In this document: positions 8,643 through 54,305 of the stretch, piece by piece
How the letters are laid out: every line of letters begins with the position of its first letter
Numbering within the stretch: the stretch's first letter is position 1
Assembly (NCBI RefSeq): GCF_036322585.1
Contig: NZ_AP024600.1
Span: 5,518,001 to 5,582,000, forward strand
DNA: 64,000 bases
Direction: 5' to 3'
Source of the DNA: Luteolibacter sp. LG18
GTDB taxonomy: Bacteria > Verrucomicrobiota > Verrucomicrobiia > Verrucomicrobiales > Akkermansiaceae
The notes under the pieces: generated by a model
Databases searched by the model: none
Seen by the model: only the letters and a program-made list of their open reading frames with translations
Told to the model about the DNA's origin: nothing
Translations under genes and position numbers: made by a program

Positions 8643-8722
8643 CATCCGCTGGGCGGAGCGTTGTCCGATGCGATCCCCTTCCTTGTTTGCCCGCCGGTGG
8701 GTCTGCTCGCAGTCTGGTCACC

Positions 8723-10351: not shown

Positions 10352-10390
10352 GAGGCCTGAATCATGCTCCCGGGCAGGCCCCCCATACAG

Positions 10391-13796: not shown

Positions 13797-13893
13797 TGGC
13801 AGGTAATCGGCTCGGGGGGGCCGATCTGGAAGAAGCATGGATGCGCTGGCTTTGCCCGATGAGGGGAACAAAGCCGGCGCATTTCATTTCCAG
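13797..13893. repeat. Hairpin repeat element, copy 1 (also a likely terminator)
   Basis: This ~97-bp element is related to 14097-14188. It holds a small stem (ATCGGC 13806-13811 with GCCGAT 13820-13825) and then a long stem, ATGCGCTGGCTTTG at 13841-13854 with CAAAGCCGGCGCAT at 13869-13882, followed by TTCATTTCC. It begins 16 bp after the PATR stop codon and probably ends that transcript. Confidence 0.7.
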
Positions 13894-13907
13894 CCCTTTC
13901 CCGAAGC

Positions 13908-13926
13908 ATGGGGAGAATTGCCCACT
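13908..13926. promoter_or_regulatory. Palindromic operator candidate, copy 3 (upstream of PL8 gene)
   Basis: The site reads ATGGGGAGAATTGCCCACT, matching the family ATGGGYAG-NN-TGCC except for G at the Y position. It lies between the two hairpin elements, about 320 nt upstream of the PL8 giant gene's start codon. A degenerate second dyad (GCAGAATATCTACCC) follows directly. The distance implies a long leader if the promoter is here. Confidence 0.6.
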
Positions 13927-14096
13927 AGCAGAATATCTACCCGGAAATCACGCTGGCCGACGCAATGGGTCAGAACCGTTCCTTTCCCCTTTCCTTGGCA
14001 TGTCCACCCGATCCCAAGCGGCGGCGTGCCCGACTCCTTTGCCCGCCCCGGAGCCCGGATCATCCACCCATGATCTGAAACGAACCAGCATCCCGC

Positions 14097-14188
14097 TGCC
14101 AGGCTCCGGGGGGAGGCCGACACGGAAGACACACGAATGCGCCGGTCTTTTGCCCCCCGCGGCAAGACCGGCGCATTTCGTTTTCCAG
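14097..14188. repeat. Hairpin repeat element, copy 2, in the leader of the PL8 gene
   Basis: This is a diverged copy of 13797-13893. Its main stem is a perfect 14-bp pairing (AATGCGCCGGTCTT at 14136-14149 with 14164-14177), extended by a bulged GCC/GGC, followed by TCGTTTTCC. It has terminator shape yet lies 49 bp before the start codon at 14237 and downstream of the operator-like site at 13908, so it could attenuate transcription of the PL8 gene. Confidence 0.65.
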
Positions 14189-14236
14189 AGCCATTGTCCG
14201 TTCCCCGCTCGCCATCCCCACTCATCCGAAAAACCC

Positions 14237-17200: not shown

Positions 17201-20200
17201 GATGGCACGTTGGGAGGAACGCCCTCCAGCGCCAACCTGGGAAGCAACACTTTCACCGTCCGGGTGACGGACAGCTACGGCGCACAGGCTAGCGCCACGC
17301 TGACCATCACCGTGGGTCAGACAAATGCCGCCCCGGTCTTCACCGCCAACCCGATCACCAAGCCCGCAGCCATCGAGGATACGGCCTACACGGGCACCTT
17401 GGCAGGTTCCGCCACGGACGCGGACGCCGGTGACTGGCTCACCTACTCGAAAGTCAGCGGCCCGGCTTGGTTGCAGGTGGCGGCGAACGGCGCGCTCGGC
17501 GGCCCTCCTTCCAACGGCGATGTCGGTGCGAACACGTTCGTCGTGAAAGCAACCGATGGCGCCGGTGCTTCCGTCCAAGCCACCTTGAATCTCAACGTCA
17601 CCAATGTGAACGATGCTCCTTTGTGGACGAATCCGGTCCTCACGAAGGTGGATGCCACGGCGGGAACCCCCTATTCCGCCAGCGTCACAACCGACGCGAG
17701 CGACGCGGACCCGGGCGACACGCTCTCGTTCAGCAAGGTCGCGGGCCCGGCTTGGCTGAACGTGGCGGCGAACGGCGCGCTCTCGGGCACACCCACGACT
17801 CCCAATGACAGCGGGCTGCCCTTCACCCTCCGGGTCATGGACTCCGCAGGGGCCAGCGCGGACGCCACGCTCACCCTCATGGTAAACGTCAATACCGGAG
17901 ATGGCACCTGGCTGAACGCAGCAGGTGGCACTTGGAACACGGTCACCAACTGGAACTCGGCCACCCTCGCCGATGGAGCGAACCGGATCGCGGACTTCAG
18001 CACGCTGAACCTCACCACCAACGCGATCGTCACGCTCGATTCGCCACATACCATCGGCCAATTGAAGTTCGGAGACACCACACCCAGCCACAATTGGACG
18101 CTGAATGGCTCCTCGCTCACACTTTTGACGACGACCGGGAATCCGACCATTCAGATCACCAGCGGCACCACCGGCATCGGCACGGTGCTCACGGGCTTCC
18201 AAGGCTTCACGAAAACCGGTGCCGGAGCGCTAACCCTATCGGGAGCGAACACCTATACCGGCGTCACGACCATCGCGGACGGCTCCGGACTGGTCACGGT
18301 CAATGGCAACCAGACCGCGACGACCGGCGGTTGGCTTATCGGATCAGGTTCCAGCGCCACCACCACCGTCACCTTCGCCGCGGGAAGCCAGATCAATGTC
18401 AATGCGGGCAAGCAAATCCGCATCGGCAACACCAGTGCCACCGGCACCTCAAGCCAAACCCTGAATGCTGCCGGCACGGTGGAGAACGCTGGCAGCCTGC
18501 TAGTCGGTCGTCCGGCGGTGCTCAATTTGAACACCGGCGGCACTTGGGATCAAAGCGGCACCATGAGCGTGGCGGCACAGGGCGGCTATTCAGCCAGTTG
18601 CTATGTGAAAAGTGGCTCCATATTCTCATATTACGGAACTTCCACGGTGAAATTGAACGCCGCCGGAGGGTCCGCATACCTGACGATCGATGGCACATTC
18701 GCCACCACCGCCGGCTTTGAACAACCCAATGCGCAGGCCACCGGAGTCGGACGAACGACTTTGCAGAATGGCGGCACGCTCAAACTCGCGGCCGACGTGT
18801 CGGCGCTGTCAACCGGCGTGCAGTTCACCCTCGGCACCGGTGGCGGAGTGATCAACACCAACGGCTTCACCGCCACCCTCAACCAGCCGCTCACCGGCAA
18901 CGGCGGCTTCACCAAGGCGGGCGCGGGCACCCTGTTCCTCACCTCTGCGAGCGCCTACACCGGACCGACCTTGATCGGCGGCGGCTTGCTGGCGGTGAAT
19001 GGCTCGCTTTCCAACGGAGCGGTCACGGTGGGCAATACCGGCACGCTTGGCGGCGGCGGCACCATCGGCGGCGCGGTCACCGTGCAGGCCGGCGGCACGC
19101 TTGCTCCGTCCGGCGCCATGACCGTGAACAACACTGTCGGCCTCGCGGGTAACACCGTGATGACCCTGGGCCGAACCGGCGCCATGCATTCCAACACCCA
19201 GGTGAAGGGCGTGACCACGCTCACCTATGGTGGCACGCTCACCGTCACCGACGTCGGAACGGATGCGCTGGCCATGGGGGACACGTTCCAGTTGTTCAGT
19301 TCCTCCGCTTACACGGGAATCTTCAGCGGCTTCACGTTGCCAGCGCTGCCCGGCGGCTTGAGCTGGCACACCGGAAGGCTCGCCATCGATGGCACCATCA
19401 CCGTGGGCTCGCTGCCGCTGGCGGTGAATGACAATTTCACCACCACGGAAGACACCGCAGGCACGTTCGCGGTGATGGCGAACGATAGTGATCCGGATAA
19501 CGACACCCTCACGCTCCTCTCCGTGACCCAGGGGGCACACGGCAGCGTGACGATCTCCGGAAGCAACGTGACCTACACTCCGGCCGCGAACTACAACGGT
19601 ACCGACAGCTTCACCTACACCGTCACCGATTCCAGCGATGGCACGGCGATGGCGACCGTTTCGGTCACGGTCACGCCGATGAACGACGCGCCGACCTTCA
19701 CCGCGAACCCGATCACCGGCGGCAATGCCACCGAGGACAGCGCGTATTCCGGATCGATCGCCAGCTACGGCTCCGACATCGACGCGGGCGACACGCTCAC
19801 CTTCTCGAAGGTGTCCGGTCCGTCGTGGCTCACCGTGGCTTCGAATGGCGCGCTCTCCGGCACGCCGCTCAATGGCGACGTGGGTGCGAACGCCTTCACC
19901 GTGAAGGTGACCGATGCCGCGGGTGCGAACGTCAATGCGACGCTGAACATCGCGGTGGCGAACGTGAACGATGCTCCGGTCTTCACGGCAAACCCGATCA
20001 CCGGCGGCAATGCCACCGAGGACAGCGCGTATTCCGGATCGATCGCCAGCTATGGCACCGATGTGGATGCGGGCGACAGCCTCACCTTCTCGAAGGTGAG
20101 CGGTCCGGCCTGGTTGTCCGTTGCCTCGAATGGAGCGCTCTCCGGCACGCCCGGAAATTCCGACGTGGGAGCGAATAGCTTCACCGTGAAGGTGACCGAC

Positions 20201-31548: not shown

Positions 31549-34500
31549 TCAATAGGAAACCTGAAGGCGAAGGAAGCGCCTCGGACTCGTGCCGATGGTC
31601 TGGACATCCGTCACCGTCACGACCCCGGCGGTATTCTGCGCCCCGGTGCTGGACCAAATGGTGGTCCACGTGTCGGCAATCGAATCCGCGGCGAGCACCC
31701 GGTAGGTCAGGGTGCTGTCCGCGATGCGGGTAAAGGTCAGGGTGAAGCGGGTGCCATCCGTGGTTTTTCCGAGGACGGCGGCCGCACCGGAGGTGGTGAC
31801 ATCGGGACGGGTACCCGTCGCATACTCGAGCAGATTCGAGCGACCATCGTTGTCGGCGTCCGCCGTATCGGAGGCGGTGGCGCTCCCCAGATAGGCCGTC
31901 CTCCAGGTCTGGATCGCGGAGGGCGGCGGAGCGGCGGCGGCGACATTGAGGGTGAGCACACCGGAGGCAGCGCTCAAGGAGCAGGCATAGCCGGACGGCT
32001 GGGTGCCGATGGCAAATCCGGCGGCACTGATGCCGGTGGCCGTGGCGAGGGTGTAGCTGCCGCTGGTGAAGCCCGCCCCGGCGGTGACGTTCACGGTCAC
32101 CGTGCCGCTGGCGGGGCCCGTGTAGGCGCCTGCGATGACAAGCTTGTCCGTGACGGTGCCCGCCTCGACCGCGAGCACGGCTCCGCCATTAAGCGTGGCT
32201 GCTCCGTTGCACGTCAGCGTTCCCGCGCCCGCGTTGCCCGGGGCGATGGTGCCGCCGCTCGCGACGGTGACCGCACCGGTGATCGTGCCGGTCCCCGCGA
32301 GCGTGCCGCCCGCATTCACCGTGACCGCCCCGGCCCCGGTGAGGCTGCCGGTCAGGTTCAGGGTGCCCGCGTTGACGGTGGTGCCGCCGGTGTGGGTGTT
32401 GGTGCCGCTGACGGTGAGCACGCCGGTGCCGACCTTGGTGAGCGCGATGCTGCCGGTGTTGCTGAAGGTCCCGGCCCATGTGCTGTTGGTATTGAGCGCG
32501 CCCGCGCTGACAGTGGTGGTGCCGCCGCCGCTCTGGCGCACGTTGCCCGCGCTGCCGCTGAGCTCGCCGAATTGGATGGTGCCCGTTCCGAAGAGAAACG
32601 AAGGCGAGTCGGTGGTGCCATTGAGCACCCACTTCGCCTGCGTGCTGCCCGCGGAGGCGCTGCCGAACTTGTTCCGCGCGGCATTCCCCGCGTTGAAGGT
32701 AAAGGTGCCGGTGAAGTTGCTGTTGTCGCCATAGAGACGGGTGCCGCCGTAGTTCACCGCGGCGCTGGTGGCGAGGTTGCCGGAGCCGGTGATCGAACCA
32801 TAGAGGTCGAGGTTGTTGCCGGTGGAAACCTCGTAGATCGTGGTGGTCGTTCCCGCCTGGGCCACGATGTTGTTGTAGAGCACGCAGCCCGAACCGTGCT
32901 GGAGATTCCCCCCGGCCAGCGTGAGCGTGCCGGTGCCGAGCGCGCCCGCGGTGGAGGTCCCGGTGCCGGACACCGCCAGGGTGCCCGCGGACAGGGTGAC
33001 GCCTCCGCTGAAGGTGTTCGCGCCGCTCAGGGTGAGGAGTCCCGTCCCCGCCTTGGTGATGGCGCGGCTGCCGCCCGATTCACTGATCACGCCGCTGATG
33101 GCGATCGCGCCGGTGTTGCTGGTAACGGTCGTGTTCTTCAACAGCACCAGCGGCAAGCCCAGGGTCTGGGTCGCGGTCGAGTTGTTGGTGATGTCCCCGT
33201 AGAGCTTGAGCGCGTTTCCGGTCAGCGTGTAGGCGCTCGCGCCGCTGTTGAACGTCAGCCCACGGGTGGTGAACCCAGTGAGATCGTTGGACAACGCGGT
33301 ATTCGCGGAAGTGCCGAAGGAGAACAGATCCTGCTCGAGCGGCGCGGTGCCTCCCCAGTTCGCCGCCAAGGATAGACTCCCCGAGGTCGTGCCGGTCCAG
33401 GTGGTGGCGACGGGCGTGCGGATGGTGAGATACAGCGTGGTGCCGCTGACCGAGAGCGAGGCGATGTGGGTGTCCGGCAGCGAATTGAGCACGAAGGTGC
33501 CCGCGACGAGGCCGGCGGCATTGGTGAGGATCGGATAGGTGCCGCTCGCGAAGCCCGCAATTGGGCTGACGTTCACCAGGACCGTGCCGCTGGCGGGAGC
33601 GGTGTAGCTTCCCGTCGCATCGATCGTCAGACAATCCGCCGTGGCCCCCACCTCGATGGCGAGAATGCTGCCCGCGGCGGGCTTGTAGGCCCCGGTAAGC
33701 GTGAGGGTGCCCGCCGAGGTGGCAGCGGCGGTGTTGTGATTGCCCGGGGAAACGAGGCTGCCCGCGGCGGCGGTGACAGTGCCCGCCACGCTGCCGGTGC
33801 CCGCCAGGGTGGCCCCGCTGGCGATGTTCACCGCGCCCGATCCTCCCGAGGTGCCGGTCACGTTGTAAATCCCGGCATTGATGCTGGTGGTGCCGGTGAG
33901 ACCGATGCCGCCGGAGATGGTCAGCGAGCCCGCTCCGACCTTCGTCAGCGCGACATTGCCCGGAGAGCTGCTGATGCTCCCGGAGAAATTCGAATCGGTG
34001 CCAAGGTCGCCGATGCGGAGCGTGGCCGTGGAGCTGCCGACATCGTTGCGGATGCCGCCCGCCCCCGCCAGCGACCCGAACGAGATCGTGCCGTTTCCAA
34101 ACGAGGTGGCGGTTCCGGCCGAAACCGTGTTGTTGAAGATCCACGCCGCGGAGGCGCTCCCGGAGTTCAAGGTGGCGAGCTTCAGCCGGTTGGTGCCGCC
34201 GCTGTTCTGGGAATTGAACGTGCCGGTGAATCCGGTGTTGTCCCCGGACAGCACCAGCGAGTTGACGTTGCCGCTCTCGATGACCGTGCCACCGCCGGTG
34301 AGATTCCCGGCCAGGGTGCTGGCGGAGGATTTCACGAGGTTCGCGGTGACCCCGGTGGGAACGACGATCGTGTTGTAAACCGTGGCTCCACCGAGTTGGA
34401 GCGTGCCGCCATTGAGCGTGACCGTTCCACTTCCCATTGGCGCGCTACCGGTGACGACGAGGGTTCCCGCGTTGACCGTGGTGCCACCGGTATAGGTATT

Positions 34501-37500
34501 GGTGTTCGAAAGCGTGAGCGTGCCGGTTCCCGCCTTGATGATCGAAGCATTCATTCCCGCGTCGCCAAGCGATCCGCCCAGCGTGATCGCGCCGGTGTTG
34601 GCGGTCATCGTGCGCGTGCCCACCAGCGTCATGTCCAGATTCAGGACCTGCGCGGTGGTGGAGTTGTTCGCGATGTCACCGGTGAGGGTGATGGCGTTTC
34701 CGGAGATCGTGAAAGCGCTCGCGCCACTATTGAAGGTGACGCCACCCAGCGTGAGCCCGGAGAGGTCGTTGGTCAGGTTCGTGGCGGATGAGCTGCCAAA
34801 GGTGAGTGCGGCATTGTTCACCGGCGCGTAGCCGCCCCAGTTCGCCGCGAGACTCCAGTTCAGCGATGTCGGCGCGGCGATCCAGGTGTTGCTGGCGGGC
34901 ATCGCCGCGACCGCGGTGGATTGCGCACTTTCACCATAGGAGTTCACGCCGCTGACCACATAGTAATAAGTGGTGCCATTCGTCAGCGATCCATCGGTGT
35001 AGGAGAGAGTGGACGAGGTGCCGACCTGGGCATAGCTGCCGGTGGTCTTCCGGTAGATCTTGTAGCTGGTGGCACCGGTGGCGGCATTCCACACCAACGA
35101 CACGGAGGTGCTGCGGGCGTAAGCCGTGAGTCCATCCGGGATCGAAGGCGGACCGGTGACGGTCAACGTCAGCGTGCCCGAGGCCGCGGAGAGCGCGTAG
35201 GTGTAACCGGACGGCGCGGCGCTGCCGAGGGTGAAAGACGCGGCGCTGATGCCGGAGGCTCCGGTGATCAAATTGTAAGTGCCGGGTCCAAAGCCCGCGA
35301 TGGCGGAGGGCTTCACCGAGACGGTTCCGCTGGACGGCCCGGTGTAGCCGGTGCCGCCGATGGCGATCCGGTCGAAGGTGGCCGCGTTTCCGATCTCGAA
35401 ATCAAGGATCGCACCGCCATTCAAGGCCAGGCCCGCGGTCGTGAACGCGCCCGCCCCGGCATTCCCCGGAGCAAGGTGGCCACCGCTGTTCACGGTGGTG
35501 GTTCCCGCGGTCGAACCGTCCCCGGTGAGAATGGCGGTGGAGTTCACCGCGATGCCTCCGGCGTGCGTGCCGAGGATGGAAAGCGTGCCTGCACCCACGG
35601 TGGTGGAGCCGGTGAAGGTGTTGTCGCCACCGAGGGTGAAGGTTCCCGCACCCGCCTTGACCAATCCACCGGTGCCGCTGAGGACGCCATCGTAAACGGT
35701 GTCCGACCCGTCGCCGCCGACCGTCAGCGTCACCGAGCTGTTCGTGGCGACCGGCCCCGCACCATGGACCCCGCCATCGGTATTGAGCATCACCACCGCC
35801 CCTTCCACCCCGGACAGGCTGCCGATCACCGGCGCGGTGGTGTCGAACCAGACCGATGCATTCACCGCGTTCACGTTCTGGATGTCCACCGCCGCGTACT
35901 GCAGCGCGGTGTTGTGGCCGATCGAGAGCGCGGCTTTTCCGGAAACCGTGTCATCCAGCACGATGGTGCCGTTGTAGGTGTTCGAGCCATTGGTGAAGTC
36001 GATGGCCGAAACCTGGTTGCTGTTGGCGTTGTTCAGCACGATGGTCCCGGATCCGGTGACCACGCCCGCGAGCTGCATCCACTTCCCGGACCACTTGCTC
36101 TGGAGCGTCACGTCGCCATTGATCGCAATGGTGCGGGCGCTGGTGCCGAGCGTGATCTTCCCGTCGCTGGGCAACACCAGCGAGCCGTCGTTGAAGACGA
36201 AATTGTTCCCCAGCGTGTTGTTCGAGTTGCTGCCCATCTGGAAGCGCAGCGTGGAGGCATTGAGGGTGACGGTGCTGCCCGCCGCTCCCAGTGAGGTCAC
36301 CGAGCCTGACGCGCTGGAGCTGGTGGACGTGCCGAGCTGCACCACGCCGCCGCTGACGGTGAGGCCGCCATCGAAGGTATTCGCGCCGGTGAGGGCGAGG
36401 ATGCCGGGGCCGGTTTTGGTGACCCCATAAACACCGCTGCCGTCGCCGATGACGCCGCTGAGCACCAGAGTGCCCACATTCGCCACCACCGTGCCCGGCC
36501 CGGTGAGCACGAGCGGCAGGCTGATGGTCTGGGTATTGACGGCATTGTCCACGATCGAGCCACCGAGCGAGAGCGAGTTCCCTGCCAGGGTGAAAGCACT
36601 GGCCCCGGTCTTGAAGGCGATGGCGGAGACCGACAGGCCCGTGATGTTGTTGCTCAGGCTGACATTGGTGGCGGTGCCGAAGGAAAGTTGGGCTCCAGAG
36701 GCAGGCACGAGGTTCCCGCTCCAATTCGTGGCCGTGTTCCAATTGGCCGAAGTGGTGCCAGTCCACGTGTAGGTGGATTGGACCGCGCTGGCCGTCGACG
36801 AACCCACGCTGGTGCCGCCGCTGTTTCCAGCCGTGACGTAGTAGGTGTAGGTGACACCGAGCGTGAGTCCCTGGTCGATGTAGCCGGTGTCCGTGGTGGT
36901 CCCCGCCAACACGTAGGCACCGCCCGATGCCGAGCGATAGATCGAATAAACCGGCACGCCCGTGGACGCATTCCACGCCAGGCTCATCTGCCCGGAGTCC
37001 GGTCCGCTGGCAACGGTGAGGCCGGTGGGCACCGATGGCACCGGGGTGCCATAGACCGCGCTCACGTAGGAGGTGGCGGCGCTGGCTCCACCCGTGCTCA
37101 CCGCATTCACGGTGTAATAGTAGGTCCCGGACGCAGGTGCCGTGGAGTCTTGGAAATAGGGACGGTCACAGGTGCCGATCTGGGTGTAGCTGCCACCGGA
37201 CGAGGTGGCACGGTTCACCCGGTAGGACGTTGCGCCGCCGGAAACGTTCCATGAGAGGAACACCCGGCTGCCCGAAGTGGCAGCGAGTCCGGTGGGCACC
37301 GCCGGAATGGGCACGGTGCCCTCCCCGCTGGCGTAGAGCCCCAACTCCGCGACCTGCATCTCGTAGCCGATGCCGCCGTTCACGGCCGTGACATTGAGCC
37401 GATGGTAGCGGTAGCCGGTGGTATTGGTGAAGGTGTAGCTCTTGGTCAACGCGCGGGTGGCGAAGGTTTCACCGCTGCGGCTGTCGAGCGTGGTCCATGT

Positions 37501-40500
37501 GGTGCCATCGTTGGAACCCTGGAACTGCCACGTGGCGGGATCGCGGAGGGTGGTGTCCGCGCTGGTGATGTCATAGCGGGTCACCGCCCACGTCATCGCG
37601 AATCCGAAATCATACTGAAGCCATCCGCTGACTCCGGAGACGCCGTTGTTCCACTTGGTGGTGGTGCTGGCATCGAAGGCCTGCGAGGCGGCATAGCCGG
37701 AGGCGCTGGCACTGGCGGAGGCAGTGCCGCCGCTCGCGCGGTTCAGCAAACCCGCCGTCTTGAGCGTGGCGGACGCTTCAATCGAATCCCCGCCATCACC
37801 ACCGGCACTGACACCACAGACGACGTAGTAATAGGGCGAGGCACTGGCCGGTGGAGTGTCCACGTAGTTGCCCACCGCCCCCACCGTGGTCACCAGCGTG
37901 TAGCTGCCGCCGGGAGTGGTGGAGCGCTTGATCTTGTACGACGTGGCTCCCGCTGCGGGCGACCACTGGAGGACCACCTTGTTCACCGAGGAGGCCGCGG
38001 TGAGCGTGACCGGACGCGCCGGACGCGCGGAGACATCGACATCGTCCGGCAGATAGAACACCACGGACGTTTGCGGCTGGAGCGTGACCGTTCCCGTCTT
38101 CGTGGTGTTCGAGATGAGGTCCGTGGCCGAGGTGAAATTCGACGGCAGGATCATGTCATACGTGGCGCTGTAGTGGCCGTTGATCCCCACCAGCCAGTGG
38201 CCGTAGCGCAACGTGTAGCCGGTGCCGCGGCCCGCGTCCGGATTTCCCCCGGAAATGCTTGTCAGATCCGAGCGCATCGGGATCGGACAAACGATGCCAT
38301 TGTAGGCGTTCGTCGGATTGTCCGGAGGCGTGCGCGTGGAGTTTCCCTCCACCGCGGGCCCCAGCGTGCGGAAAGTGCCGCTCGGCTTGTAACGCACGTC
38401 CTCCATCTGCACCTCGGCGAGGCGCGGCGTGTTTCCGGCGAGGTGGAAAACCTTCGCGAAGCCATTGATGTGGTCCGGCGACCGCCAGTAGAGGTTCGCG
38501 AAGAAACGTTCCTCGCCATGCTTCGCCGCCACCACCATGTTCTGCTCGTCCGCCCACGCGAAATCCGGCGCACCGGGATGCATCGGCAGGGGGATGTTCG
38601 TGGCGGCCATCGCCTTCACCAGCGTGTAGTTCCGGGCCGAATACGGCCCGTAGGAGGACGCCAGCATCTGGAGCTGCTGGCCATCCGCCACGGAGGTCTG
38701 GTAGTAGCCGAGCAGGTCGGAGATATCGAAGTTCGTCGCGCCAATGGTGAACGACGGGCCTTTCGAAACCACGCCGAGCCCGCCATCGCCACGCTCCAAA
38801 TAGGCCCAGTGGCCGGGCATGTCGTTGTTGCGATCGCCGATGGGCTCCGCGCCATACATCATCAGCGCGCCGCTGCCATCGTAGTTCGGATAGCGGAACA
38901 CGCAACGGGCGCGATAGACTTGGAGAGCCTTTGCCATGAGGGCCGCATCACCGGCGGAAAAGGCGACATTGAAGAGATTGCCCCCCATCTCGCCGTAATC
39001 GCTGGCCACGAATCCTCCACCATCCTTCGTCGTGCCGCGGCTGGTGGTGATGTACCAATTCTGGTCCGTGCCGCGCACGGGCGTGGGTCCGGAGCCGGTC
39101 TGGTCGCTCCCCTTGTAGGTCTCAACACCGGCGGCCTCCCGCATGTAACGGGTGGACTCGGTGAGATAGAGCGCGTTGACCGGATCCACCACCAGCAGCC
39201 CGCTGTTCGCGAGGTAGATGTTCCTCGCCACATCGATCTCCTGGTTCGCGGTGCGGGACTCGCCCCGGCGGTTGTAGCGACCGTAGTCCACGCTGGCCCG
39301 GAGCGCCTTCGACCAACCGCTCGTGCGGGTGATGGTCCCGTAGGTGCCGCTGTAGGCCACCTGCGTGGACATGATCGCGCCCGCGCTCAACTGCGGCCAC
39401 AGCAGCTTCGCCGTCGCCCCCAGCGGCGCGAATCCCCCTCCCCAGCTATCGTTTCCGAACGCAGCCACCTGGCTGCCGGTGATGCTCTGCTTCGCCACTT
39501 GATAATCGATGGCATCGACGATGAGGTTGAGCAGGTCGGTGGCCGTCTTCCCGCTGGGGTAAGTGATCCAGCTTTCACCGAGGTTCTCCTTCGCATCATA
39601 GCACTGGGCCATGTAGAGGATTTTGTTCGGAATGAGGCCGCTGGCGGCGGTGCCCATGTAGCCGGAAAGCGTGCTGTTCACCCCTGCCTTCACGGTGGCC
39701 AGCGTGGTCGCCTCGCTGTCCCCGGTGCGCGCCACGAACGCCGGTGCCGGCGTCTGCGCCTCGCCGGACACATCGAGCTGCGACCCGACGTGTGAGTAGA
39801 GCCGGTACAACCCGATCGAGGGCGAGTTCATCAGCTTCTGGTATTTGCTGAAATACGCGCCCGCGTCGTAATCATTCAGCCAGCCGGTCGAGCGCAGCTT
39901 CAGCGCCACGCTGGTCTTCCCCTGCGTGAGGTGCAGCGGAAGCGGGACCGTGCGGTAAAGGAACTGGTTGGCCGCCCAGCTCACGCCATCCGCAATGAAC
40001 TGGTCCGGCGCCGCCGAACCTCCGCTATGCCGCAGGCCCACCTCGTAGTCCTCCACATTCAGGATGAAATAATGCTGCGGATTCGGATCCGATCCCCAGA
40101 TCTTCACCGTGAGGTAATTCTGTTTCACCGGATCAACAGCCATGCTGAGCGATCCCTCTCCGCCATAGATGTCCGCATACGGCGTGCGCGGCAGGAACCG
40201 CCGGGCCGTCTGCCCGAGCGCCCCGGTGATCACATCGCTGGGATCGTCGCTGGAAGGATCGGACGGATCGATGCCTCCGGCCTGGGCCACCCACGAGGAA
40301 GGCGTCACCGGCCCCCAACCCAAGGTAAGGCCGTGGGCACTTTCCGAGGTCGAGTTCCCGAAGACAACGGTGTCCACCGTCTGCGCAGGCAGCGGCGACA
40401 TCATGCCGGTCGCGACGAAGGTCGCGAACGCAGCTCGCCGCAAATTGGAAATCCAACGACGGGTGCTCCTGGACACGATGGTCCCGGGGCCATGACACGG

Positions 40501-40518
40501 TTCATCCGTAATCCTCAT
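31549..40518 (-). CDS. Giant secreted protein: unnamed enzyme-like head, FN3, discoidin and PATR modules
   Basis: This encodes 2989 residues. The ATG at 40518 is chosen because a long, arginine-rich signal (STRRWISNLRRAAFATFVATGMMSPLPAQ) follows; AGGA lies 11 bases upstream. Residues ~45-828 belong to the same unnamed family as 3559-6222 and 40812-43151 (DPVKQNYLTVKIWGSD, YEVGLRHSG, GVETYKGSD, SVVFYLPDD). Next come a fibronectin type III domain (~835-910), an F5/8C discoidin-like domain (~925-1065), two more FN3 domains (~1075-1245), PATR repeats (~1247-1780), another FN3, and further PATR repeats (~1875-2865). The C-terminal module has DADNDGRSNLLEYATGTRP and ends RRFLRLQVSY. Probably an extracellular glycan-active protein with binding modules (inference). 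Divergent from its paralogue at 40812. Confidence 0.8.
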   Translation of the reverse strand: MRITDEPCHGPGTIVSRSTRRWISNLRRAAFATFVATGMMSPLPAQTVDTVVFGNSTSESAHGLTLGWGPVTPSSWVAQAGGIDPSDPSSDDPSDVITGALGQTARRFLPRTPYADIYGGEGSLSMAVDPVKQNYLTVKIWGSDPNPQHYFILNVEDYEVGLRHSGGSAAPDQFIADGVSWAANQFLYRTVPLPLHLTQGKTSVALKLRSTGWLNDYDAGAYFSKYQKLMNSPSIGLYRLYSHVGSQLDVSGEAQTPAPAFVARTGDSEATTLATVKAGVNSTLSGYMGTAASGLIPNKILYMAQCYDAKENLGESWITYPSGKTATDLLNLIVDAIDYQVAKQSITGSQVAAFGNDSWGGGFAPLGATAKLLWPQLSAGAIMSTQVAYSGTYGTITRTSGWSKALRASVDYGRYNRRGESRTANQEIDVARNIYLANSGLLVVDPVNALYLTESTRYMREAAGVETYKGSDQTGSGPTPVRGTDQNWYITTSRGTTKDGGGFVASDYGEMGGNLFNVAFSAGDAALMAKALQVYRARCVFRYPNYDGSGALMMYGAEPIGDRNNDMPGHWAYLERGDGGLGVVSKGPSFTIGATNFDISDLLGYYQTSVADGQQLQMLASSYGPYSARNYTLVKAMAATNIPLPMHPGAPDFAWADEQNMVVAAKHGEERFFANLYWRSPDHINGFAKVFHLAGNTPRLAEVQMEDVRYKPSGTFRTLGPAVEGNSTRTPPDNPTNAYNGIVCPIPMRSDLTSISGGNPDAGRGTGYTLRYGHWLVGINGHYSATYDMILPSNFTSATDLISNTTKTGTVTLQPQTSVVFYLPDDVDVSARPARPVTLTAASSVNKVVLQWSPAAGATSYKIKRSTTPGGSYTLVTTVGAVGNYVDTPPASASPYYYVVCGVSAGGDGGDSIEASATLKTAGLLNRASGGTASASASASGYAASQAFDASTTTKWNNGVSGVSGWLQYDFGFAMTWAVTRYDITSADTTLRDPATWQFQGSNDGTTWTTLDSRSGETFATRALTKSYTFTNTTGYRYHRLNVTAVNGGIGYEMQVAELGLYASGEGTVPIPAVPTGLAATSGSRVFLSWNVSGGATSYRVNRATSSGGSYTQIGTCDRPYFQDSTAPASGTYYYTVNAVSTGGASAATSYVSAVYGTPVPSVPTGLTVASGPDSGQMSLAWNASTGVPVYSIYRSASGGAYVLAGTTTDTGYIDQGLTLGVTYTYYVTAGNSGGTSVGSSTASAVQSTYTWTGTTSANWNTATNWSGNLVPASGAQLSFGTATNVSLSNNITGLSVSAIAFKTGASAFTLAGNSLSLGGSIVDNAVNTQTISLPLVLTGPGTVVANVGTLVLSGVIGDGSGVYGVTKTGPGILALTGANTFDGGLTVSGGVVQLGTSTSSSASGSVTSLGAAGSTVTLNASTLRFQMGSNSNNTLGNNFVFNDGSLVLPSDGKITLGTSARTIAINGDVTLQSKWSGKWMQLAGVVTGSGTIVLNNANSNQVSAIDFTNGSNTYNGTIVLDDTVSGKAALSIGHNTALQYAAVDIQNVNAVNASVWFDTTAPVIGSLSGVEGAVVMLNTDGGVHGAGPVATNSSVTLTVGGDGSDTVYDGVLSGTGGLVKAGAGTFTLGGDNTFTGSTTVGAGTLSILGTHAGGIAVNSTAILTGDGSTAGTTTVNSGGHLAPGNAGAGAFTTAGLALNGGAILDFEIGNAATFDRIAIGGTGYTGPSSGTVSVKPSAIAGFGPGTYNLITGASGISAASFTLGSAAPSGYTYALSAASGTLTLTVTGPPSIPDGLTAYARSTSVSLVWNAATGATSYKIYRKTTGSYAQVGTSSTLSYTDGSLTNGTTYYYVVSGVNSYGESAQSTAVAAMPASNTWIAAPTSLNWSLAANWGGYAPVNNAALTFGSSSATNLTNDLSGLTLGGVTFNSGASAFTISGNAITLTGDIANNSTTAQVLNLDMTLVGTRTMTANTGAITLGGSLGDAGMNASIIKAGTGTLTLSNTNTYTGGTTVNAGTLVVTGSAPMGSGTVTLNGGTLQLGGATVYNTIVVPTGVTANLVKSSASTLAGNLTGGGTVIESGNVNSLVLSGDNTGFTGTFNSQNSGGTNRLKLATLNSGSASAAWIFNNTVSAGTATSFGNGTISFGSLAGAGGIRNDVGSSTATLRIGDLGTDSNFSGSISSSPGNVALTKVGAGSLTISGGIGLTGTTSINAGIYNVTGTSGGSGAVNIASGATLAGTGSVAGTVTAAAGSLVSPGNHNTAAATSAGTLTLTGAYKPAAGSILAIEVGATADCLTIDATGSYTAPASGTVLVNVSPIAGFASGTYPILTNAAGLVAGTFVLNSLPDTHIASLSVSGTTLYLTIRTPVATTWTGTTSGSLSLAANWGGTAPLEQDLFSFGTSANTALSNDLTGFTTRGLTFNSGASAYTLTGNALKLYGDITNNSTATQTLGLPLVLLKNTTVTSNTGAIAISGVISESGGSRAITKAGTGLLTLSGANTFSGGVTLSAGTLAVSGTGTSTAGALGTGTLTLAGGNLQHGSGCVLYNNIVAQAGTTTTIYEVSTGNNLDLYGSITGSGNLATSAAVNYGGTRLYGDNSNFTGTFTFNAGNAARNKFGSASAGSTQAKWVLNGTTDSPSFLFGTGTIQFGELSGSAGNVRQSGGGTTTVSAGALNTNSTWAGTFSNTGSIALTKVGTGVLTVSGTNTHTGGTTVNAGTLNLTGSLTGAGAVTVNAGGTLAGTGTITGAVTVASGGTIAPGNAGAGTLTCNGAATLNGGAVLAVEAGTVTDKLVIAGAYTGPASGTVTVNVTAGAGFTSGSYTLATATGISAAGFAIGTQPSGYACSLSAASGVLTLNVAAAAPPPSAIQTWRTAYLGSATASDTADADNDGRSNLLEYATGTRPDVTTSGAAAVLGKTTDGTRFTLTFTRIADSTLTYRVLAADSIADTWTTIWSSTGAQNTAGVVTVTDVQTIGTSPRRFLRLQVSY

Positions 40519-40811
40519 GGGAAGTTTTTTCCTAACAGGGTTTTGAAAAGCAGGCGGCGGAAAATCCGCATGACATGCCCGCGGTGGGTTTTGTGAGACG
40601 TATGGCATTAGCCAGTTCCGCCCGCATCGATGCAATCCCGCGCCTGAAACATGTGGTTTGAACTGGTAACCCGATAACGACACCGGACCATCCACACCTT
40701 CACGTCCCGTTGCTGACCAATCCGCAACAACGACCGTGGGGCCACCATCGAACAAAAGGACAGGCGATCCGGTGATGGAAGCCATGACATCGGATCGTTC
40801 AGAAAGAACAC
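40519..40811. other. Divergent promoter region between two paralogues
   Basis: This 293-bp gap must hold the promoters of the 2989-residue gene (minus) and of 40812-43151 (plus). It contains no good match to the window's palindrome; TGGCATTAGCCA at 40602-40613 is a weaker, shorter dyad. A GTTGC...GCAAC stem lies near 40710-40730. No Shine-Dalgarno sequence is clear for the plus-strand gene (AAAGAACAC before ATG). Confidence 0.4.
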
Positions 40812-49594: not shown

Positions 49595-49939
49595 TCAGAG
49601 CTGCTGCTTGAGCTTCTGGAACTTCGCTTCCAGCGCCGTCAGCTCCTTGCGTCTCGCCGCGATCTCGTGGTCCAGCGAAGCGAGCTGCCCCAGCAGCTTC
49701 GAACGCGCGCCATCGCCGCCCTTGGCCGCGGCCTTGCCAGCCTTGCCGGGTTTCGAGGCAACACCGCCCTCGGCTTTGACCCACGAGGCGACAGTCAGCG
49801 CGCTGACTCCGAACTTCTTCACGGCGGCGGCGACACCACCGCGGCCCTTGTCGCCGTTGGCTTCGCGCACGAAATCCACGATCTGCTGCTTTTCCTCCGC
49901 GGTGTAGCGTTTGCCCTTACCTGGTTTCTTGTTGGCCAT
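49595..49939 (-). CDS. Small HTH protein with C-terminal coiled coil
   Basis: This encodes 114 residues from the ATG at 49939 (MANKKPGKGKRYTAEEKQQIVDFV); a longer in-frame extension upstream is AT-rich and lacks a signal. Residues ~10-55 resemble a transposase/IS3 OrfA-type or homeodomain-like HTH (TAEEKQQIVDFVREA...AAAVKKFGVSALTVASWVKA). An Ala/Gly/Lys linker follows, then a heptad-rich coiled coil (LLGQLASLDHEIAARRKELTALEAKFQKLKQQL). No transposase catalytic gene is adjacent, so it is more likely a chromosomal regulator or nucleoid protein than an insertion-sequence part. Convergent with HU. Confidence 0.7.
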   Translation of the reverse strand: MANKKPGKGKRYTAEEKQQIVDFVREANGDKGRGGVAAAVKKFGVSALTVASWVKAEGGVASKPGKAGKAAAKGGDGARSKLLGQLASLDHEIAARRKELTALEAKFQKLKQQL

Positions 49940-50235
49940 AAGCGCGATACTTCGTTCAGACTTGTTAGAATTGCAAGTCATCCGGGCCGCAAATGTTGGA
50001 AAACATTCCATCGGATAGCGATATCGACAATCGCGGAACTCCCTATTCGCGCAAGGTCGACACCTCCGCCAGATAAGCAAATGGCAATATCCACACCTCA
50101 TCCAATGGCACAAAAACGGCCAATCACTGGAATATATATTTTCCCAAACAAGATGATTGCCACTCCACGCTGATCCATGACAGATGAACCATCATATTCA
50201 TCTCTAACAAACCATATCAGCACCCACCCGATTGC
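49940..50235. other. Intergenic region upstream of the catalase-LodA operon
   Basis: This 296-bp region is markedly more AT-rich than the coding DNA (for example AATATATATTTT near 50129-50142). It should hold the promoters of the divergent HTH gene and of the catalase-LodA gene. No copy of the palindrome seen elsewhere is present. No clear Shine-Dalgarno sequence precedes the start at 50236. Confidence 0.45.
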
Positions 50236-53220
50236 ATGAAAAACCTGGAAGCCACGCCCGATGACGCGCCCGTCTGCGACTGCGCCACGAACCCCGACAA
50301 CTCGCTGGTCACCATGTTCGTGGACATGGTTCAGAAGGGCCGGATCAAGGCGGGCCAATGCCCGGCGCTGCGTCCCGTGTTCCTGAAGCCGCACTGCGTG
50401 GCGCACGGGGTTTTCCGCATCAATCCGGACATTCCAGAGGTTTTCAAGGTGGGCGTCTTCGCGGGCGGCGAGTATCCGCTGTGGGCCCGCTTCTCGTCCG
50501 ACACCCTGCCCACCCGCAACGACTACGAAAGCACAATCGGCATCGGCCTGAAGCTCTTCGGCACCCCGACCCCGAAGATCTTCGGCCTGCCGGATGACAC
50601 AACCTTCGATTTCATCATGCAGAACATGGACGTGTTCTTCGTGGATACGGCGCGGGACATGTGTGAGTTCACCAAGGCGGGGGTGATCGATGGCGACTAC
50701 GGCCCCTATCTGGAGGCCCATCCGAAGACCAAGGAGATCCTCGACGCGATGGCGAAACCGGTGGGCTCGGCGCTGGCCTCCCCCTACTGGGCGATCCTAC
50801 CCTTCGCCCTCGGCGGCAGCCACTATGTGAAATACAAGCTGGAGCCCACCATCGAGGTGCCAGTTCCTTCCACGCCGCCGCAGGATCCCTGCTATCTCGC
50901 CGCGGACCTTGCAAAACGCCTTTCCGAGGGAGACGCGGTGTTCCGTTTCTGCATCCAGCTCCGCACGAACCCGGCGACGATGCCGCTCGACCAGGCCACC
51001 GTGGCATGGCCGGAGGACGAAAGCCCCTTCGTCCACATCGCCGACGTGATCTTCCCGAAGCAGGACGTGACCGAGCGCGGTCAGGCGGCCTACGGCGAGA
51101 ACCTGAGCTGGAACATCTGGCGCGTGACCGCGGACCACACCCCGCAGGGCTCGATCGCCGACGCCCGCAAGGTGGTCTACGCCGCCTCCGCCAACGAGCG
51201 CCGGAACGTCAACGGCATCCCCGATGGCGAGCCCACCGTGCCGAAGCCCGCCGAGGACCTGCCACCGGGCAAGGACACCCGCGTCGTCCGCGCCGCGATC
51301 CATCCGGCGATCGGCGTGGCACGGGTGGGTGACGCCGAAACCGAATACTTCATCGGGCCGGAGGTCACCGAGCCCCCGCTCGGCGAATACACCAACCAGT
51401 ACCGCACCGCCGGTGGCGAGCTGAAGCGCCAGGCCGCGCGCTTCCGCCTCTATGGCTACAATGCCGCCGGCGAAGTGGTGCGCGAGCTCACCCCGGACAA
51501 CGCCGACATCTCGTGGACCGTGCACGTGGCGAACCGCAAGGCCGATTGGTTCCGCTTCATCACCGCGATGGATATTCCGGCGACCAAGAACCTGACGGTC
51601 CCCCGCCGCAACGCCAGCATCACCGGCCCGGCCCGCGCCCAGCTCGTGATCGATCCCGGCCCGCGCAGCATCAGCGGCCGGAATGTTTCCGGCGGAGCCG
51701 AGCACCGCTTCGATACCGGCGAGTTCAAGGGTGTGACCGTTCCTCTGGGAGAATTGCAGACCGACGACCAGGGCCGCCTGCTCTTCCTTGGCGGCCACGG
51801 CAAGTCGGCCTCGCCGAGCGGTGCCCCGCCCTTCGATCCCGCCGATCCGGACACCTTCAACAACGCGGACGATTGGTACGACGACATGTCGGACGGCCCG
51901 GTGGACGCCACCGTGTCGATCAACGGCCGCTCGATTCCCGTGGAAGGCTCGTGGGTGCTGTGCGCCCCTCCGAACTATGCCCCGGACGTGATCGGCTGGC
52001 GGACCCTTTACGACCTCCTCGTCGACACCTACGTGGACGCCGGAATGCTGCCGCTGCCGGACCAGACCTCGTTCACCCGCGACATCCAGCCATTGCTCGG
52101 CCGCCTTTCGAACCTGCAGTGGGTGAACAAGGGCTTCGCCGCGATGTATGGCAAGGGCCGCCCGATGGACTTCGAGGACCCGGCGTTCATCCGCGAGCTG
52201 TCGCTCAACGGCGAGTCCGGCAAGCCCTACGAGGAACTCCGCCGCACCATTCTGAACACCTTCCGCGCCTTCGACACCGAGGTGAACGAGCCGCGCCTGT
52301 GGCCGTGGATCTATGGCGATGACTTCGGCGGCGATCTCTTCTCGCCCTCGCCGCAGACCATGCTGGCGCTGCCGCAGCTCCAGCAACTCCATCTCCAGCG
52401 TTGGGTGGCCGGCACCTTCGTGGATGACTGGGATCCCGCCGCCACGCCGCCGCACACGCTGGCGGACGTGCCGCTGGCCGAACAACCGGCGATGCTCGAC
52501 AAGGCCGCGCTGCACTACTGCCTGGCGGACGCATTCCATCCCGGCTGCGAGACCACCTGGCCGATGCGCCACTCCACGCTCTACAGCGCGCCATTCCGCA
52601 TTCGCCGCCGCTCCGATGAACCGGCCGATACCTACGGCAGCACCCTCGACCAGCAAGAGGCGCTGGCCCTCACCGGCCCGCTCTATCGACAGGGGCCCGG
52701 CAACATCACCTGCTGGATGGGCCTGCCGTGGCAAGGTGACACCGCCTACTGCCGCTCGGGCTATGATCCGCAATACGATCCCTTCCTTCCCACCTTCTGG
52801 GCGGCCCGCGTGCCGAACTGGGTGCTGACCGAAGAGGACTACGTGATCGTGATGAACGAGTCGCTTCCGCGTGAGGAACGCATCGCCGCCTACAACCGGC
52901 GTGCCTACTGGTTCCGCGCCATCGATGAGGCTCCGGACATCCCCGCGCGCATGGAGAAGATGGTCGCCGAGTTCGGTGCCCAGGGCATCGTGGAAGCCCG
53001 CCCTGGCATCGCCGATGATCCGGATTTCCCGGCCACCATCTTCGTCGAGAACCTCAGCAAGGACCAGCAGCAGCGGTTCGCCGCGGCCAGGGCCAGCCTC
53101 AAGGCGCTCCGCACCGCCGCCGCTCCGAACTCTTACCAGGAAAAGGTGCACGCCGCCGGTTGGAACAGCGAGCAGCACCTCCGCGAAGCCATCAACCTTC
53201 GAGCCCGCCGCAAGTCATGA
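50236..53220 (+). CDS. Catalase-like domain fused to LodA-type CTQ amino-acid oxidase
   Basis: This encodes 994 residues with no signal peptide. Residues ~20-340 form a catalase-related heme domain: KPHCVAHGVF (distal H53), YPLWARFSSD, MQNMDVFFVD (N130) and ARKVVY (R311 and proximal Y315), all expected heme-site residues. Residues ~350-994 are LodA-like (L-lysine 6-oxidase/GoxA family), starting AAIHPAIGVARVGD. LodA uses a cysteine tryptophylquinone; the cross-link pair is probably C771 (HPGCETTWPMR) and W832 (LPWQGDTAYC), 61 residues apart versus about 65 in Marinomonas LodA. The LodA part would oxidatively deaminate an amino acid and release ammonia and H2O2; the catalase-like part could consume that peroxide or use it (inference). 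The stop overlaps the LodB-like start, as expected for a maturation partner. Substrate is unknown. Confidence 0.85.
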   Translation: MKNLEATPDDAPVCDCATNPDNSLVTMFVDMVQKGRIKAGQCPALRPVFLKPHCVAHGVFRINPDIPEVFKVGVFAGGEYPLWARFSSDTLPTRNDYESTIGIGLKLFGTPTPKIFGLPDDTTFDFIMQNMDVFFVDTARDMCEFTKAGVIDGDYGPYLEAHPKTKEILDAMAKPVGSALASPYWAILPFALGGSHYVKYKLEPTIEVPVPSTPPQDPCYLAADLAKRLSEGDAVFRFCIQLRTNPATMPLDQATVAWPEDESPFVHIADVIFPKQDVTERGQAAYGENLSWNIWRVTADHTPQGSIADARKVVYAASANERRNVNGIPDGEPTVPKPAEDLPPGKDTRVVRAAIHPAIGVARVGDAETEYFIGPEVTEPPLGEYTNQYRTAGGELKRQAARFRLYGYNAAGEVVRELTPDNADISWTVHVANRKADWFRFITAMDIPATKNLTVPRRNASITGPARAQLVIDPGPRSISGRNVSGGAEHRFDTGEFKGVTVPLGELQTDDQGRLLFLGGHGKSASPSGAPPFDPADPDTFNNADDWYDDMSDGPVDATVSINGRSIPVEGSWVLCAPPNYAPDVIGWRTLYDLLVDTYVDAGMLPLPDQTSFTRDIQPLLGRLSNLQWVNKGFAAMYGKGRPMDFEDPAFIRELSLNGESGKPYEELRRTILNTFRAFDTEVNEPRLWPWIYGDDFGGDLFSPSPQTMLALPQLQQLHLQRWVAGTFVDDWDPAATPPHTLADVPLAEQPAMLDKAALHYCLADAFHPGCETTWPMRHSTLYSAPFRIRRRSDEPADTYGSTLDQQEALALTGPLYRQGPGNITCWMGLPWQGDTAYCRSGYDPQYDPFLPTFWAARVPNWVLTEEDYVIVMNESLPREERIAAYNRRAYWFRAIDEAPDIPARMEKMVAEFGAQGIVEARPGIADDPDFPATIFVENLSKDQQQRFAAARASLKALRTAAAPNSYQEKVHAAGWNSEQHLREAINLRARRKS

Positions 53221-54305
53221 GCCAAACCTGGGATGCCATCATCGGTGGTGCCGGACCGGCTGGACTGATCGCCGCGACCACCTTGTCGCGGGCGGGCGGG
53301 AAAGTCCTGCTCCTCGATCCCCAATCATCCGGCCGCCACAAGGTCGGCGAAAGCGTGCCGGGCGCCATGGCCCGACTGCTGGCGAAACTCAACCTGCCGC
53401 CCATCGGCGGGCCGGGTAGTCCCCACCGCTCGGTCGGAGGCATCGTCTCCCACTGGGCGGGCGAACTGCGGACCGAAGATCACCTTTCGAAACCCGAGGG
53501 TGGTGGCTGGCGGCTCAACCGCGGCGCGTTCGAAGCCGAACTCGCCCAGGTGGCCGCCGCCGTGGGAGTCATGAGAAAACCCGCGCGCGTCACCGGTGTG
53601 GAACGCATCAACGGTGTCTGGCAGATGGACACGGAGGCCCACGGCAAACTCGCCGCGGATTTCCTGATCGATGCCACCGGCCGCAATGCCGCCATCGCCC
53701 GGCGTGCCGGAGCCCGTCAGATCCACGGCCCGCCCTTGGTCGCCGTCTGGACCATCGGCCGCAACACCCGCGAAACACCGCCCAACCGCACCTTCATCGA
53801 ATCCACCGCCGAGGGTTGGTGGTATGCCGCGTATCTGCCGGATGGTCGACCGCTCACGGTCTTCCACACCACCCCGGCCCTGGCCGCGGATCTGCGCGCC
53901 CATCCCATGCGATGGCTCGAGCAACTGCGCGCCACGCGCCACATCGCGGCACAGGTCGATCCCGAGGCCTTCTACCGGATGGCGCTGAAGGTCCACGACG
54001 CCCGGTCCTGCCATCTGGAGTCACCCTGTGGCCCGGGCTGGGCCGCCTGCGGTGATGCCGCGCTGGCATTCGATCCCCTCGCCTCGCAGGGCATCTTCAA
54101 TGCCATGGCCTCGGCCGACATGGTCGCCACCGCGCTGTTGGGAAATACGACCTTGGAACACTACCAGCGAACGGCCGAGGAGGTGAGATCCCTCTATCAG
54201 CGCCGCAGGAATCCGCTCTACGCCGCTGCCGCGCGCCACTTCGGCACACCGTTCTGGCAACTCCACGCGGATCGGGATCCGATCGCGGATGGCGTGACGT
54301 CATGA
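53217..54305 (+). CDS. LodB-like FAD-dependent monooxygenase (CTQ maturation)
   Basis: This encodes 362 residues. The ATG at 53217 overlaps the upstream stop codon (ATGA), a sign of translational coupling; the longer in-frame start at 53160 would lie inside the upstream gene. It has an FAD Rossmann motif GGAGPAG (residues 9-15), an internal DATGRNAAIARR motif and the second FAD signature GDAALAFDPLASQGIFNA, as in the p-hydroxybenzoate hydroxylase/halogenase group. LodB proteins hydroxylate the precursor Trp of the LodA cofactor. Its position directly after a LodA domain supports that role. It ends just before a strong terminator. Confidence 0.88.
   Translation: MSQTWDAIIGGAGPAGLIAATTLSRAGGKVLLLDPQSSGRHKVGESVPGAMARLLAKLNLPPIGGPGSPHRSVGGIVSHWAGELRTEDHLSKPEGGGWRLNRGAFEAELAQVAAAVGVMRKPARVTGVERINGVWQMDTEAHGKLAADFLIDATGRNAAIARRAGARQIHGPPLVAVWTIGRNTRETPPNRTFIESTAEGWWYAAYLPDGRPLTVFHTTPALAADLRAHPMRWLEQLRATRHIAAQVDPEAFYRMALKVHDARSCHLESPCGPGWAACGDAALAFDPLASQGIFNAMASADMVATALLGNTTLEHYQRTAEEVRSLYQRRRNPLYAAAARHFGTPFWQLHADRDPIADGVTS

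Follow-up and report, generated by a model that had tools for sequence, protein, structure and literature searches.

A catalase-fold domain with phenylalanine at the distal-histidine position is fused to a LodA/GoxA-type quinone oxidase in Luteolibacter sp. LG18

What does a catalase-like domain do when it shares one polypeptide with an oxidase of a family whose characterised members make H2O2? The question is raised by a locus of Luteolibacter sp. LG18 (Verrucomicrobiota; assembly GCF_036322585.1, contig NZ_AP024600.1) that lies in the window analyzed here, a stretch of 64,000 nucleotides (positions 5,518,001 to 5,582,000 of the forward strand). An open reading frame with an ATG start (50236–53220, + strand) encodes a 994-residue protein that joins a catalase-fold domain to a LodA/GoxA-type quinone oxidase in one frame, and a LodB-like frame starts at an overlap with its stop (ATGA, 4 bp common to both genes). 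The first-pass annotation, made from the DNA sequence alone, had described the fusion and the 4-bp overlap correctly, and had proposed either a self-protecting oxidase or a peroxide relay. The alignments described below indicate that the domain keeps the residues that hold heme and that its two distal catalytic residues are replaced in every LodA-linked copy counted; it is therefore probably not a catalase. The main elements of the locus are as follows.

50236–53220, + strand: catalase-fold/LodA-type fusion coding sequence, 994 aa (open reading frame and Pfam)
50287–51243, + strand: catalase-fold heme domain, approximately residues 18–336 (AlphaFold2 predicted local distance difference test score [pLDDT] 92.6; superpositions)
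51286–53073, + strand: LodA/GoxA-type cysteine tryptophylquinone (CTQ) oxidase domain, residues 351–946 (Pfam LodA_N and LodA_C; superposition on GoxA and LodA)
53217–54305, + strand: LodB/GoxB-type flavoprotein maturase, 362 aa (NCBIfam GoxB/LodB matches; ATGA overlap)

In the catalase motif R-x-x-H-A-K, the histidine is the distal base. The corresponding stretch of the window protein reads R46-P-V48-F49-L-K51-P-H53, and H53 had been taken for the distal histidine in the first-pass annotation. Aligned with the catalase of the same genome in three MAFFT modes, the window protein has R46 opposite R72, V48 opposite V74, F49 opposite H75, and K51 opposite K77. The HMMER alignments to four solved catalase-family chains and the hhalign comparison with the genome's own catalase also place F49 opposite the distal histidine, and the assignment of H53 to this role by simple position is rejected on these alignments. 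In the genafpair mode of MAFFT the proximal residues fell out of register with classical catalase; the other two modes aligned them. The superposition of the heme-domain model on human catalase starts at model residue 42 and catalase residue 68, which gives the same register only if no gap follows (the end points alone are printed), and is support rather than proof. The distal-side residues are listed below.

50380–50382, + strand: F49, at the catalase distal-His position (Phe in 41/41 linked domains; MAFFT, HMMER, and hhalign)
50392–50394, + strand: H53, an extra His four residues downstream of F49 (41/41 linked domains; 23/27 free rows with a residue there)
50620–50625, + strand: Q129-N130, with Q129 at the catalytic-Asn position (Gln in 41/41 linked domains)

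Phenylalanine occupies the distal-His position in all 41 LodA-linked heme domains; the free-standing relatives (n = 29) have His (25), Asn (3), or Gln (1) there, and none has Phe. Most of these relatives read R-D-A-H-A-K-A-H-G, in which the distal histidine and the equivalent of H53 stand together. The second distal residue is similarly altered. The first Asn of the catalase GNN motif is the catalytic one. N130, previously proposed for this role, aligns with the second Asn, and the first position is held by Q129. Because the Q129-N130 pair sits in one of the search patterns, its conservation is in part a product of the search; none of the patterns contains F49, and seven loci (L054, L083, and L090–L094) were recruited by profile search rather than by pattern. 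Six pocket residues (F49, Q129, F134, F135, S306, and N326) are invariant across the 41 linked rows, as are H53, S87, and N130.

The N-terminal part of the window protein gave no Pfam or NCBIfam match at E ≤ 0.1, the catalase profile PF00199 included, and PF00199 matches five of the 31 members of set A2 at E ≤ 0.01. A phmmer search with residues 1–345 matched the solved catalase-related protein 3e4w (E = 6.6e-5), and a 30-row profile reached 3e4w at E = 1.6e-12, with classical catalases following from E = 2.9e-9. The AlphaFold2 model of the domain alone (pLDDT 92.6; the whole protein has a mean of 77.6) superposed in VIA-align 2 on 3e4w (Z = 28.5), Micrococcus catalase (27.7), coral allene oxide synthase (27.4), and human catalase (27.2); such lists speak for the listed families only. 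When the two halves were compared separately with families and structures, a check that the first-pass annotation had called for, the catalase fold and the LodA/GoxA fold were both recovered. The heme-holding residues are as follows.

50371–50373, + strand: R46, aligned with catalase R72, a heme contact and register anchor (Arg in 41/41 linked and 29/29 free rows)
50488–50496, + strand: R85-F86-S87, equivalent to catalase R112-F113-S114 (R and S in 41/41 linked domains)
51166–51201, + strand: proximal heme side, R311, Y315, and R322 (each in 41/41 linked and 29/29 free rows)

R311 and Y315, two of the residues first named for the heme site, are the proximal Arg and Tyr. The R365-equivalent position is Arg in all 40 linked rows that have a residue there. 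Compared with a monofunctional heme catalase, the window domain thus has the fold (Z up to 27.7), the proximal Tyr, and the heme-holding Arg residues (Y315, R311, R322, R46, and R85), and it has neither the distal His (F49) nor the catalytic distal Asn (Q129). Since the heme-holding residues are intact and both distal catalytic residues are replaced, the N-terminal domain very probably binds heme, but canonical catalase chemistry by the linked domain is unlikely. Of the first description as a catalase-related heme domain, the fold and the heme-binding residues hold good.

The closest solved structure, 3e4w, is the 33-kDa catalase-related protein of Mycobacterium avium subsp. paratuberculosis and represents a minimal catalase core. 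Unlike the window domain, it keeps the distal histidine (RALHAKG) and was solved as a stand-alone chain of 320 residues; no paper on this protein was found among the literature matches listed. The y4iL-like free-standing proteins (y4iL of NGR234 and others) form the sister group on the tree and share the extra histidine (KxHG), but the distal His is kept in 25 of 29, and no lodA occurs in the flanks examined (~1.5 kb for most).

The oxidase half matches LodA_N (residues 356–576, E = 3.2e-79) and LodA_C (705–855, E = 4.4e-38), both above the gathering scores. In VIA-align 2 it superposed on ten GoxA entries (Z = 34.8–35.6, root-mean-square deviation 3.4–3.6, 538–560 residues), one further GoxA mutant (Z = 26.9), and LodA (Z = 31.1). 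GoxA is the glycine oxidase from Pseudoalteromonas luteoviolacea (6byw and mutants), and LodA comes from Marinomonas mediterranea (3weu and 2ymw). The window protein shares with them the oxidase fold, the CTQ Cys/Trp, and the equivalents of GoxA D678 and H583, the residues mutated in the PDB entries according to the entry titles. Both differ from the window protein in having no heme domain, and the GoxA loop with Y766/H767 has no counterpart in the alignment of the window protein. The NCBIfam equivalogs score below their cut-offs (GoxA, NF038173: 372.7 bits against 750; LodA lysine 6-oxidase, NF038172: 179.4 bits against 600), and the same holds for the second gene (GoxB 203.7 and LodB 160.2 bits; cut-off 400 for both). 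The oxidase and its putative maturase are members of their families, and by these scores they are identified as none of the named enzymes GoxA, LodA, GoxB, or LodB; an adjoining LodB-like gene is a feature of the LodA/GoxA family. The oxidase half should make hydrogen peroxide.

The quinone residues differ from those first proposed. LodA builds its CTQ from C516 and W581, and the Cys and Trp are reported to be conserved in all LodA/GoxA members (Campillo-Brocal et al., PMC4417212). In the HMMER alignments of the window protein and of the family profile, C839 pairs with LodA C516. Counted along the printed alignment, the GoxA residues opposite C839 and W855 are C682 and W697, which we take to form the CTQ of GoxA. 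The predicted CTQ pair is accordingly C839/W855, instead of C771/W832.

52537–52539, + strand: H768, aligned with GoxA H583 (HMMER alignments)
52738–52740, + strand: D835, aligned with GoxA D678 (alignments; Asp in 54/54 LodA rows)
52750–52752, + strand: C839, CTQ cysteine, LodA C516 (alignments; Cys in 54/54 LodA rows)
52798–52800, + strand: W855, CTQ tryptophan, GoxA 697 (alignments; Trp in 50/50 rows with a residue, 4 gaps)

W832 aligns seven residues ahead of LodA C516 and cannot be LodA W581. C771 stands opposite an Ile of LodA and a Val of GoxA. It is Cys in 36/36 fused rows. Of the 14 LodAs that have no heme domain, however, four have Cys and ten have Ile, Val, or Ala, and the four separate-gene loci are divided equally between Cys and Ile. 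On this distribution, C771 is taken as a lineage feature near the active site and not as a cofactor residue. Both D765 and C771, beside the active-site H768 (window 52528–52548, + strand), are invariant in the 36 fused LodAs and variable elsewhere; this signature is possibly the mark of a different substrate.

The pairing of the two domains is rare and scattered. A scan with heme-domain patterns, at one genome per species, returned 40 loci: 36 with one open frame, one (L043, Gemmatimonadota) with a broken frame, and three with separate genes. The 37 fused proteins, the window protein included, carry both domains in the same order (L020 and L033 are cut by contig ends), and this fusion therefore recurs beyond chance. 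Profile searches added six fused loci (L054 and L090–L094) and one locus (L083) where lodA and then lodB are followed by the gene of a 635-residue catalase-like protein. The separate-gene form is found in four loci, where the gene lies beside, or is clustered with, lodA-lodB; in two Chitinophagaceae (L045 and L047) it is directly upstream of lodA. In 37 of the 40 loci, a lodB-like stretch follows on the same strand; in the remaining three, the contig stops no more than 119 bases from the fusion. Neighborhood clustering of the loci gave no widespread third gene besides lodB.

Nine named phyla are represented (Pseudomonadota, Acidobacteriota, Actinomycetota, Myxococcota, Gemmatimonadota, Nitrospirota, Bacteroidota, Planctomycetota, and Bdellovibrionota, the last as separate genes), some of them assigned from metagenome-assembled genomes (MAGs), whose contigs may be misbinned. 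In the phylum of Luteolibacter itself, three of 387 genomes match at all and the window copy is the only fusion; 58 other near relatives gave no match, and the closest relative is a MAG protein (70%). Among 398 Pseudomonadota genomes, 52 match: two fused (one being the Agrobacterium sample center), one separate (G778), nine in which LodA was the top match, and 40 catalase-like only. Eight of 247 Bacteroidota genomes match at 1e-20, five of them fused, in addition to the Chitinophaga center, and five of 296 Actinomycetota genomes match, with only the Streptomyces center fused. Two or three candidates were scored per genome in these larger samples, so absence there is soft. A scan of viral contigs gave no relative. 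The copies are rare and scattered, and several are on plasmids, which suggests horizontal spread.

The history of the two halves was followed in trees of the catalase domain (70 of 83 extracted rows) and of LodA (54 of 69), the dropped rows being repeats of a locus already included or near-duplicates; the trees carry Shimodaira–Hasegawa-like approximate likelihood ratio test (SH-aLRT) support only, with long branches flagged. A branch with SH-aLRT 98 separates all 41 linked heme domains (37 fused and four separate) from the 29 free ones. Within the linked set, three separate-gene domains are nested among the fused ones, and that of L039 is outermost. Five changes of the fused state are required on the LodA tree, and starred branches force three of them. 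LodAs that have no such domain in the sequence examined (Tistrella L005, G598, G640, and Mesorhizobium L009) lie among the fused ones, and the Chitinophagaceae LodAs fall outside the main LodA clade, whereas their heme domains are inside the heme-domain clade. From these conflicts, it is deduced that the domain was lost or gained more than once and that the two halves do not have one simple shared history. When the heme domain was sought elsewhere in seven LodA genomes, six (G598 and G640 among them) gave no match and G644 gave weak matches only. In Mesorhizobium (L009), lodA is preceded by a gene of 513 aa that has no Pfam match and no BLAST likeness to the heme domain.

The first-pass annotation knew of no described LodA with such an N-terminus. 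The architecture itself is, however, already known: a survey published in 2015 lists 21 catalase (pfam00199)–LodA fusions in LodA group III (Campillo-Brocal et al., PMC4417212, Table 3). These have the same two domains, order, and size range as the window protein, and the entry of Massilia timonae CCUG 45783 (979 aa) is our locus L032 (979 aa), of the same family. To the knowledge of the authors of that survey, no protein of the fusion-bearing group had been characterized. Its parts on these fusions report the domain match and do not discuss the distal pocket. Among the LodA/GoxA literature matches listed, it was the only paper on the fusion; PMC4699246 makes no mention of catalase, heme, or fusion. 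For catalase-fold proteins with an altered distal His, the literature matches listed, which mostly leave out subscription journals, hold no description of this His-to-Phe change. Within this literature, the points that appear to be new are the corrected CTQ pair, the His-to-Phe and Asn-to-Gln signature of every linked domain counted, the single clade of linked domains, and the link of the heme domain to LodA-LodB through separate genes.

Here, we propose that the fusion is a two-domain quinohemoprotein in which the oxidase half feeds the heme half, as a relay and not as a scavenger, and we assign this reading a probability of about 0.4. The neighboring LodB-like flavoprotein would mature the fusion, and the oxidase half would supply H2O2, or its aldehyde, imine, or keto product, locally to the Tyr-ligated heme, where a second oxidation would be performed. 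Acid–base help may come from the substrate itself (e.g., a carboxylate), from H53, or from K51; in the CYP152 peroxygenases, the substrate carboxylate plays this role. We infer both the non-catalase role of the heme domain and the second oxidation from the residues. In favor of a relay, lodA is in the same gene (36 open frames and one broken) or beside it (three) in all 40 pattern-scan loci. A working precedent is the coral allene oxide synthase–lipoxygenase (3dy5 and 1u5u), in which a catalase-fold domain is fused to the maker of its peroxide substrate. According to PMC5617202, its heme set is R64, R102, R360, and Y353, and its distal side has H67, T66, and N137; unlike the window domain, it keeps these distal residues, and its partner is a lipoxygenase. 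Several facts weigh against the relay. Apart from lodB, the loci show no conserved further partner gene. The role of the missing distal His might be taken by H53. The close LodA relatives G598 and G640 have the same CTQ residues and no such domain in their genomes, which indicates that the LodA reaction is independent of the heme domain. In the whole-protein model, the stretches around H768 (764–770) and W855 (840–857) have pLDDT values below 50. Finally, because a single branch sets off all the linked rows, the His-to-Phe change counts as one event that was then strictly kept, not as 41 independent events. A bolder form of the relay is doubtful: a distinct class of heme enzyme, with a Tyr-ligated heme under a Phe that is constant in every linked copy counted across the nine named phyla, would use the peroxide or product of its own CTQ half for a second, substrate-assisted oxidation, giving a two-step quinone and heme cascade in one polypeptide.

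The alternative reading, in which the heme domain destroys the H2O2 of its own oxidase and H53, on the same strand four residues on, replaces the distal His, draws on the catalase fold, on the invariance of H53, S87, and N130, and on the tight coupling to a peroxide-producing family, but we consider it unlikely. The distal-His position is Phe and the catalytic Asn position is Gln in every linked domain, and H53 coexists with a true distal His in most free relatives, so that it looks extra rather than shifted. The genome also encodes an ordinary catalase elsewhere (644 bits), and bulk peroxide removal need not rest on the fused domain. Of the two possibilities raised at first, the self-protecting oxidase is weakened, since it rests on an intact peroxide-cleaving pocket, and the relay survives. 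The same loss of both distal catalytic residues would suit a non-catalytic heme or pseudo-enzyme domain that serves in assembly, stability, localization, or regulation of the oxidase by heme or a gas. Some heme-carrying proteins have a Tyr-ligated heme whose distal side is hydrophobic, and LodA relatives without the domain exist; the strict conservation of the six pocket residues, however, exceeds what a scaffold seems to need, and we judge this role to be no more probable than scavenging. Much less probable is an aid to maturation, in which the heme domain would help to make CTQ by analogy with the Tyr-ligated diheme enzyme MauG, which helps to make tryptophan tryptophylquinone. Fused or separate, the domain is linked to lodA in all 40 pattern-scan loci and to lodB wherever the contig continues, as such a role might require, but G598 and G640 keep the CTQ residues in genomes that lack the domain altogether, and the maturation of LodA itself involves LodB (PMC4417212).

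The locus of the separate genes in Bdellovibrionales (L039:1182–4375) holds a catalase-like gene with a hydrophobic leader, divergent from a lodA with a twin-arginine-like start, both read by eye; the pair suggests an exported version. The absence of a signal peptide from the window protein, from which cytoplasmic use had been suggested, agrees with our reading of its N-terminus by eye, but it does not fix the location, given these two export-type leaders. In L083 (3566–10543, + strand), the catalase-like protein has ~285 extra residues without a Pfam match, lodA has ~156 extra N-terminal residues, and an NPP1-domain gene follows. Another LodA-type protein, in a 1150-residue frame (L104:664–4116, − strand), bears a long C-terminal repeat-like extension that appears propeller-like by eye.

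Among five free-standing sister genes with long flanks, four adjoin other heme oxidases or peroxidases and L008 does not. The neighbors are a RoxA-like cytochrome c (L088:3386–5107 and L089:6019–8349, both − strand), an animal-type heme peroxidase (L084:3269–6295, − strand), and, in NGR234, an annotated di-heme peroxidase with a patatin (L007:8059–12009, + strand). They possibly represent a family of lipid or polymer oxidation clusters. The catalase-like domain of L084 is C-terminal (residues 629–894) in a 900-residue open reading frame (7688–10390, + strand) and has Asn at the distal-His position (RAGNTK); this is common to L084, L074, and L077 and is another rebuilt pocket, in L084 without a LodA link in the sequence examined.

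In the window, a GH31 gene and a weak transposase-like frame lie upstream of the fusion, and a zinc alcohol dehydrogenase and a major facilitator superfamily transporter lie downstream of the LodB-like gene on the opposite strand. These neighbors hardly recur: in the clustering of the loci, only L008, where the catalase-like gene is free-standing, holds a gene resembling the dehydrogenase, and only L015 and L047 hold one resembling a two-component sensor that lies further upstream in the window. The transposase-like frame (49595–50110, − strand; helix-turn-helix match at E = 0.0093, below the gathering score) lies ~120 bp upstream of the fusion and is perhaps a relic tied to its arrival. A promoter and terminator scan found one promoter-like site against 0.8 expected and no terminator-like sites against 3.3 expected. 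The window also holds two very long open reading frames (13841–22672, + strand, 2943 aa; 31549–40785, − strand, 3078 aa).

The label "catalase", attached to these fusions since 2015, invites the guess of self-protection; for the group as a whole, the residues found at the heme site speak against it. If the heme indeed uses peroxide in another way, the group III LodA enzymes would include a natural, built-in oxidase–peroxygenase cascade, which would also be of interest to biocatalysis.

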